Assembly: GCA_947475465.1 (NCBI GenBank) | Contig: CANJLK010000008.1 | Span: 24,241-88,240 of the forward strand | Length of the DNA: 64,000 nucleotides | Direction of reading: 5' to 3' | From: Caulobacteraceae bacterium | GTDB taxonomy: Bacteria > Pseudomonadota > Alphaproteobacteria > Caulobacterales > Caulobacteraceae | Translations under genes and position numbers: made by a program | The notes under the pieces: generated by a model | Databases searched by the model: none | Told to the model about the DNA's origin: nothing | Seen by the model: only the letters and a program-made list of their open reading frames with translations | Part shown: positions 53,599 to 64,000 of the stretch, one piece after another | Position numbering within the stretch: position 1 is the stretch's first letter | How the letters are laid out: every line of letters starts with the position of its first letter

Positions 53599-56021
53599 TT
53601 ACCAGTTGACGCTGATCCGGCCGTAGACGAACCGCCCGCCGAACCCGAAGGGCGAGAAGGAGGTGAACGGGCCAGCCCCGGTCGTATCGAGCGTCTTCGG
53701 GATCTGGCGCGGATATTGGTCGAACAGGTTGTCGGCGCCCACCGCCACGGTGACCTGGTGCGGGAAGGTGTAGCGGCCTTCCAGGTCCCAGATGCTGCGC
53801 TGGCCGGTGTGGATGTCGGCGCTGCCGTCGGCAAGCGTGCCGGGGGCCAGCACATCGCCATAGAAGGTCGAGCGCAGCGTGGCCCCCCAGTTGTCGAGGC
53901 TCCAGTCGCTTTGCAGGGTGGTCTTCCACTTGGGCGTGCCGCGCTCGAAGCGCAGCACGGCCTGGCGGGCGAACAGCGAGACCGGAACCGGCAGGATGGT
54001 CTGTTTCGTCACCGGCGTCTTGGTGACCTTGAAGTCGTTCTGGTTGGCCGCCGCCGTCAGGTCGAACAGGCCGAACTGGTCGGTGTGGAGCCGGTAGTGG
54101 ACAACGTAGTCCACGCCCTTGGTCTTGGTGTCGACGCCGTTCAGGAAGAACCGCGCCGCCGAGGCGCCGAACGGCTGGAGCAGATCGAAGATCACCCGCG
54201 CATTGGTCCCGACAGCCGCGGTGTTGCTGCCGGTCAGGGTTTCGGACAGGACGATCCGGTTTGTCACATCGATCTCATAGCCGTCGATCGTCACCTCCAG
54301 GCCACCGGCGTGGAAGACCGCGCCCAGGGCGTAGTTCTTGGATTTCTCAGGCTGCAACGGCACGCCGCCCAGCGCCTTGCCGGTCGGGCTGACCGACGGG
54401 AAGGTGCCGGTGTCGAAGGGCACGCCGTTGATGAACAGGATCGAGGTCGACGTGAAGTACTGCTGCTGCAGGCCCGGCGCACGGAAGCCGCTTTCGGCGG
54501 AGCCGCGGAAAGCCAGTTGCGGGGTGACCTCGAAGCGCGCCGACAACTTGCCGGAGGTGTTGTCGCCGAAGTCCGAATAGTGCTCCTGGCGGACGGCGGC
54601 GGAGCCGGTAAAGCGGTCGGTCAGCTTGGCTTCCAGGGCCACATAGGCGCCGACATTGGTGCGGCTCTTGTCGAGGACATTGGCGGGCTGGAAGCCGCTG
54701 AAGCCGCGCGAGCCGAAGGCCAGGGTGGGGGCGACCGTGCCGCGGGCATAGGAGCCCGGCTCGCCCGCGCCGATCTCGTAGCCTTCCTTTCGGGCCTCGA
54801 GGCCGAAGGCGACGTTCAGAGGTCCAGCCAGGCCCAGGTCGAAGTCGCGGTTAAGTCCGCGTTGCCGACGGTCTGATCGTAGATCATCTCGCCCGCGTAG
54901 AAGGAATGGGGCGACGTCGGGCCAAGCGACGGGTTGAGCGTATGCTCGACGCCGTAGCGCAGGCGGTTCCAACCGTAGTCGAGACTGAAGTCGGCCTTCC
55001 AGCCGGCGATCTCGCCCTTCAGCCCGCCGCCCACGCTGAAGTCGCGGCTGTGGGTGTTGATCAGCGGCAAGTAGCCGTCTGGGTAGACTGAGGGGATGTT
55101 CTGGGTGGCGTCGTTCGGGGCGCGATAGGTCGCGGCCGTCTCGGAATGGCGCTCCTGCACGCCGCCCCAGGCCGAAGCTTCCCAGCCGTCGCCCAGCGGC
55201 TTGCCGGCGTTGAGGTAGAGGGTCTCTTCCTCGACATCGCCGTCGCCGAAGCGCGAGCGGACCTTGGCCGGCGTGAAGCGCGGATCGATGTCGCTGCGGT
55301 TGGTGTGGTTCTGGTCGCGGTACTGGCCGGAGATGGTCAGGAATCCGTCGGCGCCGAGCTTGAGGCCCTGCCAGCCGGCGACGGTGGTGGTCGCGCCATC
55401 CTTCAGGTCGCCGCCGCCGCCGTAGAGGCCGTTGAAGCTGGTGATCCGCTGGCCATAGGTCAGCGAGGCGCCGCCGCCGTGATCGACGCCGCGCAGGCCG
55501 ATGTTGATGACGCCGGCGATGGCGTCAGAGCCGTAGAGGGCCGAGGCGCCGTCCCGCAGGACTTCGATCCGGTCGATCGCCACGGACGGGATGGTGTTGA
55601 GGTCGACGGCGGCCGAGCCACGGCCCACCGAGCCATTGAGGTTGACGAGCGCCGAGGTGTGGCCGCGCACGCCGTTGATCAGCACCAGGGTCTGGTCCGG
55701 GCCCTGGCCGCGCAGGGTGGCGGGACGGACCGAGTCCGTGCCGTCGGTGTTGGACGGCCGCGGGAAGTCGATGGAGGGCACCGTGGCCGCCAGGGCGGCG
55801 GCCAGCTCGGTCGTGCCGCGCTTCTGCAGGCTGGAGGCGGTGACCACGTCCACCGGCGCGAGGGATTCCAGGCGCGAACGCGGCTCGGCGCGGGAGCCGG
55901 TGACCACAAGTTCCTCGACTTCCTTGGAATCAGCGGTCTTGCCAGCGGTCTGGGCGAGCGCGCCTGTAGTAATGAGGCTCGCCACCGATACGGCGGCAAA
56001 CAAGACGATACGCGATTTCAT
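53599..56021 (-). pseudogene. TonB-dependent receptor interrupted by a frameshift (N-terminal ORF 54816-56021, C-terminal ORF 53599-54972)
   Basis: Plug domain in the first frame (EELVVTGSR, LRGQGPDQTLVLINGVRG, IEVLRDGASALYGSDAIAGVIN); barrel and C-terminal ...FVYGRISVNW in the second frame. Confidence 0.85.
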
Positions 56022-58307: not shown

Positions 58308-59312
58308 CTAGTTGTAGGCGACGGTGACGATGAAGCTGCCCGAGTAGTCGCCGACCGTGGTGGTGGCGTCGATCGGAAAGGAGCCGCCGACCCCCAGGTC
58401 GAAGGTTCCCTGGGCGCCGAGCGCGGCGCTCAATGTCGGCGTCGGGCCGGCGGAATTGGTCGTGGTGACGGTCAGGGGCGGGGTTGGACCGGTCAGCTGG
58501 AACGTGGCGGGGACGGTCACGCTGAAGGTCTGACCGCCCTCGCCGGACACCGTGAAGTTTGCGCGGGACGGCGCGGTGGCGCCCAACGGCGTGCCGCCGG
58601 TCACCGTGCGCACGCCCGTGACCGGATCGATGGTCACTGTCCCGGCTCCGGCGGAGGGCAGGGCGATGCGGCCGAAGACCAGGTCCGAGTTCTTGGTCAT
58701 CAGGATCGAGCGCAACACCCTCACGGTGGCCCGGCCGATGGCGCCGCTGGTCGGACTGAGAGGGGCCGGGGCCACGAAGACCGAGAAGTCCGATTCCGCA
58801 TCGCCGGTGGGGAGGCCGGTGTTGTCGCCGGCGATGCCAAGGTCGGCGCCGACGAAGAAGGTTTTCGAGGCGTTGGGGCCGATGGGGTTGATCTGGAACC
58901 CGCCTACCGGGCCGCCGATGGGGCTGCCGTTCAAGGTGGCGGTGCCCATGACGTCCAGAATCCGGGTCAGCGCCCGGGCGCGCTTGGTGGGCGAGCCCGC
59001 CACCGCGATCTTGACGTTCACCGCCTTGGTGCAGTCGCCGACGGCGACGGCGGCGCAGGAGATCGTCACGACCGAGTTGGCGCTGGCGCCGCCCACCCGG
59101 GTGCCGGTACCTGAGACCCGGGTCACAACCCCCGTGCTGGGGTCGATCCTGTAGAGGGTGTCTCCGGTCACCCCTGAGGTGACGACGCCGAGGTTCATGT
59201 CGGTGATGGCGACGGTGTAGGTCTCCGCCGCGGCGGGTCCCGACGCCAACGCCAGCAGCACCCCAGACAGCGCGGGCAGGCGGCTCGCCTTTATGAGCCT
59301 GGCCATCAACAA
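58308..59312 (-). CDS. DUF4402-like pilin/adhesin subunit, probably two tandem domains
   Basis: Signal peptide; C-terminal LGVGGSFPIDATTTVGDYSGSFIVTVAYN; N-terminal half resembles the C-terminal half. Confidence 0.8.
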   Translation of the reverse strand: MLMARLIKASRLPALSGVLLALASGPAAAETYTVAITDMNLGVVTSGVTGDTLYRIDPSTGVVTRVSGTGTRVGGASANSVVTISCAAVAVGDCTKAVNVKIAVAGSPTKRARALTRILDVMGTATLNGSPIGGPVGGFQINPIGPNASKTFFVGADLGIAGDNTGLPTGDAESDFSVFVAPAPLSPTSGAIGRATVRVLRSILMTKNSDLVFGRIALPSAGAGTVTIDPVTGVRTVTGGTPLGATAPSRANFTVSGEGGQTFSVTVPATFQLTGPTPPLTVTTTNSAGPTPTLSAALGAQGTFDLGVGGSFPIDATTTVGDYSGSFIVTVAYN

Positions 59313-59374
59313 AACGACGCATACCTCTCGATCAAGACCACGATCCTACCATGCCGGTTCGAATTTGTAGCGGG

Positions 59375-62300
59375 TCAACTGGCGGGCGGTTGCGCCGGTT
59401 CGTCACGGGGCGCGAACTCCACCTGGGCCTTGATGTCGGGATTGGGGGCGCCGTCGGTTCCTATGGTGAGGGTGACCGGGCGGACGAGCCGCATGCGAAG
59501 TCGGGCCGCCTGTTCGGGGTCGAGCTCAAGGCGGTAGGCCCCCGCCGGCGCGTCCTGGAAGTCCGCCGAGCCGTCGAACTCGGTGGTGGCCTCCAACACG
59601 TCACCGCTGGCGGCGACCAGGCGGATACGCGTCGCGGAAAGGCCCACCAGCTTACCGTCCGGACGACGTAGGGCGATGCTGACGAAGACCTCGCCGGTGG
59701 GGCGCAACGGATAGTCGATGTCGGTCACACCGCCGGGTCTCGGCGAGAATTCCACCGTGGTCGCCGGCGCCTTGACGGACTGGTTCTCCACTTCGAGCAC
59801 GCTGACCTGAAGGCGCGCGGTGGGGGCGGCGCCGAAACCGGTCAGGTAGGCCATGCCGTCCTTGTCGGTCCGCACGGTGCGCTCGCCGCCCTCCAGAACG
59901 ACGTTCGCGACCGGCCGCTCGCCAGCCTCGTAGCGGCCATCGCCGTTGGCGTCGACAAAGGCGTGGAATAGGACCGAGCCCCCGGAGCCGGGCCCCTGGC
60001 TGGTCAGCTCATAGCGCCGGGCCTGCGGATTGTAGCCGAGGCCGAAATTGACCTGGGCGCCGAGGGTCCAGGCGTTGTTCAAGGTGTCGTACTGCCCCGT
60101 CAGCGCCAGGTCGCCATAGCGAGTCTTGGTGATGCTGCTGGCCAGCAGTTCCGTGCCGCGCGGGCCCTCGAGGGTCTGGTTGGCGGCAAAGCGCAGCGAC
60201 CATGTGCGCGAAAGCGCCCGGTCGACGGTCAGGCTGAACAGATTGGCCCGATAGTCCGGCACGATGTCGTAGTTGAACTGGGTGCGCACCTGCCACTGGT
60301 AGTTCCGGAAGGTGGAGACCTCGACATAGCCGCGCAATAGGTCCTGGCTGGTCATGCCGGGCCGGATGGTCCGGTTGTATTCCAGCCCTGTCGAATAGAG
60401 GAAAGGTCCCGCCGAGGCCGAGCCGCGGGCGGATCCGAACGTGGTGCGTCCGCCGTCCAGGTAGTTGTCCTGCACCGCCCTGAAGGTGAGGGGGATGACC
60501 CGGTCGCCCAGCTTCACAGCCTCGTCCACGGTCAGTTCGGTGCGGCGCGAGAGCGGGCGGTTGAAGTCCGCCTCCGCGTTGGTCTCGTCGATCAGGCCGC
60601 CGCGGTATACCGAATGACGCAGAAGGGCGTTGGCGCCAAAGACCCGGCCCGCCACGCCAACAGATCCCGCGCGGCCGCCGCGGTTGTCGCCGGCCACGTC
60701 GAACTGGGTGGCGAAGCCGGCGATCGAGGTGCGCAGACCGCCGGCGAACAGGTTGCGCTGGATCCCGGACTGGTCGGAGTAGATTGAGGCGCCTGACGTC
60801 AGGGTTAGATATTGGGTCAGTCCAAAACTGTAGGCCGCTATGATCCGCGGCTTTCCGAGGCTGCGGTCCAGGAGGAACGGGTCGTCCTGGTTGCGGAAGT
60901 GGAAGAGGGTCTCGTTCTGCTGGACGGCGGCGAACTCGAAGGTCGCCTGGCCGGGCTTCAGCAGGCCGCCGCTGACGTTGATGACCCGGGTTTCCTCGCT
61001 CCGTTGGCCGCGAGGACCGTAGGTGACGATGCGAACGATGTTGACGCCCTGCGTCAGGGGAACGTTGAGGAATTCGTAGCGACCCTGGACGGCGGCGTTC
61101 TGCGTGCCGCGCAGCACGTCGTTCACATAGAGCTCGACGTCGTCGCCCAGGGGCAGTTCGCCACGCAGGTCGATGCGGTTGAACACATAGGCCTGGTCGA
61201 GAGGAACGGTCGAGATCGACAGGCCGCGGCCGCCGACGCTGCGCGGCCCGATCGCCAGGGCAGGGGTGAAGACGTCGCCAAGGCCGACGTCACGCGCATG
61301 TAGCGGACCCAGCAGGTCGCCGTTGAGAGAGCGCCGCTCCAGGAGGACGCGGGCGCTGTTGGGCCGACCGCTCTCGTCTGAGCCAACATAGGCCTGCAGG
61401 CCCGAGTAGAGGAAATCGCCCCCAAGCCGCAGGTCGTAGCGCAATGGGTATTGCGGGTGGGCGGTCTGGGCGCCCAGTCCGAGCGCCACGTCGATCGAGG
61501 GCGGCGTGGCCAACTTGTAGGGGCTGTCGATGCGAAGCGCCTTATTGGCGCTGGGGTCCGGGCCCGTCTGGCCGGCGCGCTGCTGACGCTGAAGTCGGCC
61601 CTGGATCGGCAGCAACTCAAGCGCGGTGATCTTCATGCTGAGCGTCTGTGAGCTGACGGCGAGCCGCAGCGGCAAGAGCTTCGCAAGGGCCGAGGCGCGG
61701 ACGTAGATCTCGGTCTGGGTGGCGGCGACGTCCTGCGGCGCAAGGATCACTTGCATCGGCCCGATTCGGGCCGTGCCGGTCGCCAGGTCGACCACCAGCG
61801 AGCGCTGCGCCTGGCCGATCCGCCCGATGATCCGGCCCTCGCTCGGCGAGACGTCGATGTCGAGTTCCAGCAGTCGGCTGAACTCGCCGACCGGGATCAG
61901 GGGGTCATCCGGCGAGCCGTAGGCGGCCATGCCGTCGGTGAGGGTCAGATCGTCCAGCTGCACCATCAGCAGCACCAGGCTGGTGGGGTCAGGCTCCTGC
62001 GCTCGGATTGCGGCCCTCAGGGGCGAGCCGCCGCTCGACGCCACGCCCGCGCCCAGCAACATGTCCGACATCGGGTCGCGGCGGCGGGCGGACGCCGGGG
62101 GGGCCTGGGCGAGCACGATCTTCGCCGGCGGCCGGGCGGCGTCAGGACTGGGTCGCGCGGGCGCCGCGAAGGGCGAGGCGGCCGAAGAGGTCAGGAGCAG
62201 GGTCGCGAAGCGGTCCGACCGCGGAAACGCGAAGCCGGGACCGCTGGCGCGCAGCAGCAGCACGCCCATCGGGTCGGGGCGCTCCGCCGCTAGGGCCTGG

Positions 62301-62392
62301 TCACCGGCAAAGAGCAGGAACCCAGCTGTCGCGACCCTGGCGGCACGGTTACAGGACGAGTTTCGCAAGGAGTTTTCCCGGCGAAGTGTCAT
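59375..62392 (-). CDS. Outer membrane usher-like protein (TcfC/PapC-like) with C-terminal Ig-like/SdrD-B-like domains
   Basis: 1005 aa; VELYVNDVLRGTQNAAVQGRYEFLNVPLTQGVNIVRIVTYGPRGQRSEETRVINV usher-like segment; long beta-barrel; DANGDGRYEAGERPVANVVLEG near the C-terminus. Confidence 0.8.
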   Translation of the reverse strand: MTLRRENSLRNSSCNRAARVATAGFLLFAGDQALAAERPDPMGVLLLRASGPGFAFPRSDRFATLLLTSSAASPFAAPARPSPDAARPPAKIVLAQAPPASARRRDPMSDMLLGAGVASSGGSPLRAAIRAQEPDPTSLVLLMVQLDDLTLTDGMAAYGSPDDPLIPVGEFSRLLELDIDVSPSEGRIIGRIGQAQRSLVVDLATGTARIGPMQVILAPQDVAATQTEIYVRASALAKLLPLRLAVSSQTLSMKITALELLPIQGRLQRQQRAGQTGPDPSANKALRIDSPYKLATPPSIDVALGLGAQTAHPQYPLRYDLRLGGDFLYSGLQAYVGSDESGRPNSARVLLERRSLNGDLLGPLHARDVGLGDVFTPALAIGPRSVGGRGLSISTVPLDQAYVFNRIDLRGELPLGDDVELYVNDVLRGTQNAAVQGRYEFLNVPLTQGVNIVRIVTYGPRGQRSEETRVINVSGGLLKPGQATFEFAAVQQNETLFHFRNQDDPFLLDRSLGKPRIIAAYSFGLTQYLTLTSGASIYSDQSGIQRNLFAGGLRTSIAGFATQFDVAGDNRGGRAGSVGVAGRVFGANALLRHSVYRGGLIDETNAEADFNRPLSRRTELTVDEAVKLGDRVIPLTFRAVQDNYLDGGRTTFGSARGSASAGPFLYSTGLEYNRTIRPGMTSQDLLRGYVEVSTFRNYQWQVRTQFNYDIVPDYRANLFSLTVDRALSRTWSLRFAANQTLEGPRGTELLASSITKTRYGDLALTGQYDTLNNAWTLGAQVNFGLGYNPQARRYELTSQGPGSGGSVLFHAFVDANGDGRYEAGERPVANVVLEGGERTVRTDKDGMAYLTGFGAAPTARLQVSVLEVENQSVKAPATTVEFSPRPGGVTDIDYPLRPTGEVFVSIALRRPDGKLVGLSATRIRLVAASGDVLEATTEFDGSADFQDAPAGAYRLELDPEQAARLRMRLVRPVTLTIGTDGAPNPDIKAQVEFAPRDEPAQPPAS

Positions 62393-63278
62393 CGTCGGTA
62401 AAGGTCAATTCGATCTTCTCGCCGGGCGCGGGTGCGCGGGTAAGGACCACCTGGACCGTTCGCCGGTCGATTTCCGGATAGACCCCAAGGCCATGGACGA
62501 CGCCGATCGGCGCGCTGCGCGGTTGGCCCTGAATGCGCACTTCCAGGCTGCCGAACAGCGAACCGGCGCCTTGCCGCACGAGGTCGAGCGTCAGGACAGG
62601 GCTCTTCGGTCTCGGCGCATGGCCCGGCCCGCCCAGATCCTCATAGGTCAGGCGCGGGTTTTCGAAGCCGGCCCGCACGTCGAGGTCGCTGAGGCGCACG
62701 ATGACCGGGACGCTCAAGCCAAACAGCGCGGTGATGCGGATGCTCAGCCCGCTAGCCGTGGTGCTGGAGGCGGCTTCCTCGGCCGTCGTGCCGGCGTCGC
62801 GCGGGGGCAGTGTGGCGATGGTCAGGTGAGTGCGATATTCAGCCGGCTCAACATTGGCGCCGCCCACCACCTGCAGGCGGATCAGTTGGCCCTCGCCGGG
62901 CTTGAGGGTCGTGCGCCGGGGCGAAATCTGCAGGATTGGCTGGGCGGACTTCACTTTGTCCGCCACGGCCTTGGTCGCGGGATCGGCTTGGGCTTCCTCC
63001 ACAGTGAGGATGCGGCCATTGGGCAGCATGATCCTGTCGACCAGAGAGATGTCGAAGGTGCCGGGGCCCGTGCCTTGATTGAAGACGAAAATAGTGCCCG
63101 ACCGGTGATTGCGGTCGAGTGTCACGCGCTTTGGCGAAATGTTGAGGTTCGCCGCATTCGCCGCGGCGACGGTGGGACTCGCGGTGGTCGGCGCGGGTGC
63201 GGCCGGCGGCTGCGCAGCCGCCGGCCCGGCGGTGCTGAGCAGCATCAGAAGGGCGGCGGTAGGGGCGCTAAGCTTCAC
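62349..63278 (-). CDS. PapD-like periplasmic pilus chaperone
   Basis: Signal peptide; LNISPKRVTLDRNHRSGTIFVFNQG; LQISPRRTTLKPGEGQLIRLQVV; 44-nt overlap with the usher gene. Confidence 0.83.
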   Translation of the reverse strand: MKLSAPTAALLMLLSTAGPAAAQPPAAPAPTTASPTVAAANAANLNISPKRVTLDRNHRSGTIFVFNQGTGPGTFDISLVDRIMLPNGRILTVEEAQADPATKAVADKVKSAQPILQISPRRTTLKPGEGQLIRLQVVGGANVEPAEYRTHLTIATLPPRDAGTTAEEAASSTTASGLSIRITALFGLSVPVIVRLSDLDVRAGFENPRLTYEDLGGPGHAPRPKSPVLTLDLVRQGAGSLFGSLEVRIQGQPRSAPIGVVHGLGVYPEIDRRTVQVVLTRAPAPGEKIELTFTDDDTSPGKLLAKLVL

Positions 63279-63522
63279 GTGCGGCTCGTCAGGTTTGAAG
63301 GATAGTCACCGGAACGGCGCCAGGCTCGCCGCCGATCGACCATGGCATGGGAAGAGGTTGGGTTTCCATCGGCGGAGATTTCTTGTCGCACCCTGATTGG
63401 CCTGCTCCAGGACCACGAACCCGTCCGCCGGATTGCCGGCCAGACCGCAGCGAGTCGGAAGCCTCGCTCCATATGATTAACCAGTTGCTCACCTTGGGCC
63501 GCGAGAGGGCCGAACGCAGACG

Positions 63523-63549
63523 AAAACGGCCGCCCACGAGGGGCGGCCG
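63523..63549 (-). terminator. Rho-independent terminator/attenuator between the DUF4402 gene and the chaperone gene
   Basis: Minus strand CGGCCGCCC-ctcgt-GGGCGGCCG-TTTT. Confidence 0.75.
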
Positions 63550-63599
63550 CCGAATTCGCTGGGCGGCGGGAGCCAGGCCCCGCCACGGCCCGTAAGGGC

Positions 63600-64000
63600 T
63601 CAGAAGTAGTTGACCGTCAGGGTCAGCGTACCGGAGTAGGGCACGGACGGCGTTGCCGCGTTGATCGAGAAGGAGCCGCCGACACGCAGTTCCTGGAACC
63701 CGGCCGCGGGGATGGTGCCGTACGTGCCGGTCGTGGCCACCGGAGTGGAGGCCGAGACCGTGCCCAGCCCGGTCGGGGTCATCACGACGCCTTGCGAGGT
63801 CGAGTAAGTTGTCGGCGCGCCGCTGAGGGTGAAGCGGGCGGTGCTGGTGGTCGACGAGACGGTCGCCCCGTTGCCGGCGCCCGTCAGGGTCACAGCGTCA
63901 CTGGCGTCGAGAGTCACGGTGTTGGAACTGGCGTTCGACGGGCGGGTGATCATGCCGAACAGCATGTCGGTCGTCTTGGTCAGGGTGTAGGGCGAGACGA
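63600..64000 (-). CDS. DUF4402-like pilin subunit (truncated by window end)
   Basis: LTKTTDMLFGMITRP ... LRVGGSFSINAATPSVPYSGTLTLTVNYF, matching the 58308-59312 protein; reading frame open to the window edge. Confidence 0.82.
   Translation of the reverse strand, partial: VSPYTLTKTTDMLFGMITRPSNASSNTVTLDASDAVTLTGAGNGATVSSTTSTARFTLSGAPTTYSTSQGVVMTPTGLGTVSASTPVATTGTYGTIPAAGFQELRVGGSFSINAATPSVPYSGTLTLTVNYF

Follow-up and report, generated by a model that had tools for sequence, protein, structure and literature searches.

The last genes of the window (the whole stretch of 64,000 nucleotides analyzed here) form a four-gene cluster that we read, with a probability of about 85%, as an operon for secretion and assembly by the chaperone-usher pathway, belonging to a divergent branch that apparently has no name. 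All four genes lie on the minus strand, in the order DUF4402 subunit, chaperone, usher and second DUF4402 subunit (Table 1).

Gene layout and chromosomal setting

The source genome is a 2.98-Mb assembly in 53 contigs; among named genomes, Phenylobacterium metagenome-assembled genomes are closest to it. The window is the end of contig C8 (88,240 bases). Re-reading of the window bore out the gene order, coordinates and strand of the first-pass annotation. That annotation had also called the operon complete-looking, which does not hold for its 5′ end: base 64000, the last of the window, is also where contig C8 stops, and it falls within the first subunit gene. This subunit therefore lacks its N-terminus (132 aa versus 171–174 aa in the homologous Phenylobacterium loci L077 and L078), and the contig offers an incomplete operon and nothing of what may lie upstream. 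The overlap of the chaperone and usher genes that it described is real; its length of 44 nt holds only if the usher starts at ATG 62392, and the TTG at 62368 would give 20 nt. Since the usher frame of L077 and L078 opens only at the equivalent TTG, comparison of the sequences suggests that the usher may start there.

Compared with two Phenylobacterium relatives, all four genes diverge as coding sequences do, least at codon position 2 and most at position 3, and their proteins are 52–65% identical to those of L077 and L078. In L076, L077 and L078, all from Phenylobacterium, the cluster adjoins the same peroxiredoxin, rpsF and rplI genes. The shared neighbors, the level of identity and the coding-like divergence together indicate that the cluster is a maintained chromosomal locus in this genus.

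We also note, elsewhere in the window, a TonB-dependent receptor gene (53599–56021, minus strand) that is split into two overlapping frames of 457 and 401 aa. It is one open frame in Phenylobacterium L076, and tblastn places a single frame change near 54850, which is either a sequencing error or a recent mutation.

Table 1. Features of the cluster, in window coordinates
Feature	Coordinates	Strand	Size and limits	Evidence
Probable major pilus subunit (DUF4402)	63600..63998	-	132 aa, N-terminus missing at contig end	Pfam PF14352, E 1.2e-12; full-length relatives at the same place in the cluster in L077 and L078
PapD-like periplasmic chaperone	62349..63278	-	309 aa, GTG start	PapD_N 1.2e-3 (below Pfam cut-off; above it in relatives); profile match 99.2% to 23 known chaperones, both domains
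Outer-membrane usher	59375..62392	-	1005 aa from ATG 62392, or 997 aa from TTG 62368	No Pfam Usher match; top 18 PDB matches of the model are FimD/PapC, best E 8e-28; profile match 99.9% to 28 known ushers
Predicted usher N-terminal domain	61619..61984	-	Residues about 137-258, after disordered extension 21-129	AlphaFold2 secondary structure and confidence
Predicted 24-strand barrel	60029..61498	-	Residues about 299-788, 6 strands before and 18 after the plug	AlphaFold2 model
Predicted plug domain	60971..61174	-	Residues about 407-474, within the barrel region	Model; source of the sequence matches to canonical ushers
Predicted usher C-terminal beta-sandwich domains	59414..59977	-	Residues about 806-993	Model; source of weak carboxypeptidase-regulatory/SdrD_B matches
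Two-domain terminal subunit, candidate tip protein	58308..59312	-	334 aa	DUF4402 at residues 205-333, E 1.4e-26; N-domain encoded on its own behind the usher in Brevundimonas (98.2%)

The usher and its chaperone

By its predicted structure the 1005-aa protein is an usher. The AlphaFold2 model (mean pLDDT 75, core mostly 80–92) places the disordered extension, the N-terminal domain, six barrel strands, the plug, 18 further strands and the C-terminal sandwich domains in that order, with the domain boundaries used for the strand count set after inspection of the model. The presence of 24 strands and a plug had been chosen beforehand as the check on the earlier proposal of an usher-like barrel; the model has both, and its nearest structures are FimD and PapC. 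The TM-scores of these matches are modest (0.27–0.38 by query length, 0.41–0.56 by target length), consistent with a distant relative that carries an additional extension at its N-terminus.

Sequence searches reach less far. The protein has no match to the Pfam Usher model PF00577 at E values up to 1, and PDB sequence searches with the single proteins and with profiles found no chaperone, usher or pilin. In profile-profile comparison the usher aligns with the 28 canonical ushers over 751 columns, while crossed usher/chaperone controls give 0.3%. The missing PF00577 match is a matter of that model's reach, and is outweighed by the fold and profile evidence. A usher profile built from seven relatives recovered full or near-full-length homologs in 22 of 385 alphaproteobacterial genomes, as well as weaker matches to the plug region of other proteins, several of which carry Pfam Usher.

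The proposal of a two-domain PapD-like chaperone likewise stands, with an alignment to known chaperones of 192 columns that spans both domains; the same profile also matches archaic-type chaperones. The proline that is invariant in the superfamily (CsuC Pro59; PMC4654587, which also describes the class-specific anchor residues) corresponds to P120 and is present in 47/47 chaperones of the window's group and 23/23 canonical ones. The classical anchor pair (PapD R8/K112) is not kept: the arginine column holds R in 42 of the 47, and the lysine column holds P in every one. Strand F of domain 1, which carries Arg89 in CsuC/EcpB, has R149 (38/47) and H151 (43/47), either or neither of which may be its equivalent, in an alignment that is shifted by one or two residues; R235 and Y267 of domain 2 are conserved, and the same shift limits their equivalence to the anchor Tyr and Arg.

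The DUF4402 subunits and the proposed fiber

Pfam DUF4402 is found in both subunits, and it is their only Pfam match; neither matches SCPU (PF05229), and the window's own genome contains no SCPU and no Pfam Usher match. The signatures that the subunits were said to share are present in both, as LTKTTDMLFGMITRP and MTKNSDLVFGRIALP, LRVGGSFSINA and LGVGGSFPIDA, and YSGTLTLTVNY and YSGSFIVTVAY. Profile-profile similarity between DUF4402 and SCPU is 97% with DUF4402 proteins chosen by their C-terminal pattern, and 4%, 83% or 61%, according to the DUF4402 set, with unselected Pfam-cropped sets (reversed controls <1%). Because the similarity depends so much on the sequences chosen, we consider a pilin fold for DUF4402 to be no more than likely; on these profiles the family is possibly remote kin of SCPU, the archaic pilin family. 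No mention of DUF4402 or PF14352 was found in the literature searched; most subscription journals lay outside the reach of that search, and novelty is thus not proven.

The terminal subunit consists of about 190 aa, signal peptide included, followed by a 144-aa DUF4402 domain. This two-domain form occurs in Phenylobacterium and Novosphingobium. In Brevundimonas the separate N-domain gene is followed by a DUF4402-like gene (95.5%); comparison of this second gene with the two-domain protein gives 15%, and the correspondence covers the first half only. The idea that the N-domain is itself DUF4402-like was discarded: an initial value of 96.7% came from a comparison set that held N-domain relatives, and a clean set gives 19.5%. 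The model of the terminal subunit is weak (mean pLDDT 58, mostly 63–87 in the DUF4402 domain), and pilus subunits (CfaB, FimH, FimG and the PapG pilin domain) are overrepresented among its structure matches, none of them reaching E 0.001. By analogy with Ecp, which has its adhesin at this place, and with Csu pili, whose tip adhesin is likewise two-domain, the two-domain product of the last gene is probably a tip protein, a role that is supported, not proven.

From the genes and the predicted structures we infer a surface fiber as the product. The DUF4402 subunits would enter the periplasm by the Sec route, where the PapD-like chaperone would hold each of them by lending a beta-strand. The usher, a predicted plug-gated 24-strand barrel in the outer membrane, would then take the chaperone-subunit complexes and link the subunits by donor-strand exchange. 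Its position and domain make-up suggest that the two-domain terminal protein would probably be exported first and form the tip.

The same genome carries an orphan DUF4402 gene on contig C4 (L005:10444-10959, minus strand), with no chaperone or usher in the surrounding 20 kb. Its 171-aa product is 48% identical to the window's first subunit and is possibly an extra subunit for the window's usher.

Distribution and class placement

In most of the loci read the subunit gene comes first, then the chaperone and the usher, and genes for terminal subunits usually follow; in a few the order is rearranged or no subunit was detected. The order is conserved in Phenylobacterium, Brevundimonas and sphingomonads and on Polaromonas and Pseudoalteromonas plasmids, and plasmid-borne copies also occur in Novosphingobium and Sphingopyxis. 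The description of the system as alphaproteobacterial was therefore too narrow, as relatives are found in beta- and gammaproteobacteria. Their spread is sporadic, with 7 positive genomes among 100 of the order when a single protein is the query, and 13 among 398 of the phylum at E < 1e-20. Among the 385 alphaproteobacterial genomes, 13 of the 17 that are positive for DUF4402 also have a window-type usher (Fisher p = 2e-15; the test assumes independent genomes, an assumption that does not hold).

Several individual genomes deserve mention. G378, an alphaproteobacterial genome of 0.9 Mb, has at least 10 DUF4402 genes and two window-type usher loci (L049 and L057), one usher frame carrying a TAG stop; this is unusual for a reduced genome. 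G368 has four DUF4402 matches, on contigs C7 and C19, and no detected window-type usher. In Pseudoalteromonas (L045:4413-10353) genes for SPOR-domain proteins flank the cluster on both sides.

A FastTree phylogeny separates all 48 ushers of the window's group from all 28 canonical ushers (support 1.0, branch 1.16); we quote this only as an unrooted split, since FastTree support labels shift on re-rooting, and the alternative class is thinly represented among the canonical sequences. Nearest to the window's group are EcpC and one other usher, which may be a long-branch effect. Comparison with known systems gives a mixed picture. The classical type 1 and P pili share the predicted barrel and plug and provide the best structural matches, but the usher is only about 12% identical to theirs, the chaperone lysine is replaced by an invariant proline, and the window's subunits reach 0.6–4% against FimA/F/G/I by profile. 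The archaic Csu system (CsuA/B-CsuC-CsuD-CsuE, with SCPU pilins) resembles the cluster in its two-domain tip adhesin (PMC9452303), in its chaperone profile and perhaps in remote DUF4402-SCPU kinship; unlike it, the window's cluster has no Pfam SCPU or Usher match and its usher falls in a separate clade, and equivalents of Arg89, Arg174 and Tyr196 are blurred by the shifted alignment. The alternative Ecp system of Escherichia coli has the same order of subunit, chaperone, usher and adhesin genes (ecpA-B-C-D, with ecpD after the usher) and likewise no classical anchor lysine, whereas the window's subunits score about 1% against EcpA in one weak profile comparison and the usher branch is long. 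The cluster is best placed within the chaperone-usher pathway, as a divergent branch with apparently no name of its own.

Some of these likenesses would suit a rapidly evolving member of one of two known classes, the alternative (alpha, Ecp-like) or the archaic (sigma, Csu-like), rather than a separate branch, a reading that we regard as a serious possibility, if somewhat short of an even one. The ecp-like gene order, the nearness of EcpC and the degree of DUF4402 similarity to SCPU all speak for it, as does the lack of the classical lysine, which is also absent from non-classical chaperones (PMC4654587); the 48 versus 28 usher split, the lack of any Pfam SCPU match in either subunit and the fall of the SCPU similarity to 4–83% with unselected sets count against it. 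Working machinery might also make a product other than a pilus, such as a thin coat, a capsule-like layer or a very short tip structure. The name of Pfam SCPU comes from a spore-coat protein, and some clusters, as in Sphingopyxis L046, have just one detected subunit gene besides the usher; but most have at least two, and the terminal protein is two-domain as tip proteins are, and we think such a product unlikely.

That the large protein is some other outer-membrane barrel with carboxypeptidase-regulatory-like domains might be supposed from the silence of Pfam Usher and from RefSeq, which names relatives of the window's usher 'hypothetical' or 'carboxypeptidase regulatory-like domain-containing protein'. 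This is highly improbable, given that 18 usher chains rank before any other barrel among the PDB matches of the model (8e-28 for the best, 8e-8 for the first non-usher), that the usher profile aligns along the whole length, and that a PapD-like chaperone gene adjoins the usher in nearly every cluster read.

For the chaperone-usher branch that we favor, it is nearly an even question whether it amounts to a further main class outside the six named clades. Such a class would combine DUF4402 pilins, an usher that the standard model does not reach and a chaperone whose subunit-anchoring site is mixed (the arginine of the classical type but not its lysine, together with two conserved basic residues in strand F1), and would span alpha-, beta- and gammaproteobacteria, partly on plasmids. 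If it is indeed separate, it would test how far donor-strand assembly can diverge. Usher surveys based on PF00577, of which PMC5717340 is an example, would miss this branch. From the cluster, DUF4402, to which no function has been assigned, gains a likely role, as do proteins now labeled 'carboxypeptidase regulatory-like'; in environmental and plasmid-bearing bacteria the system is a candidate for adhesion.
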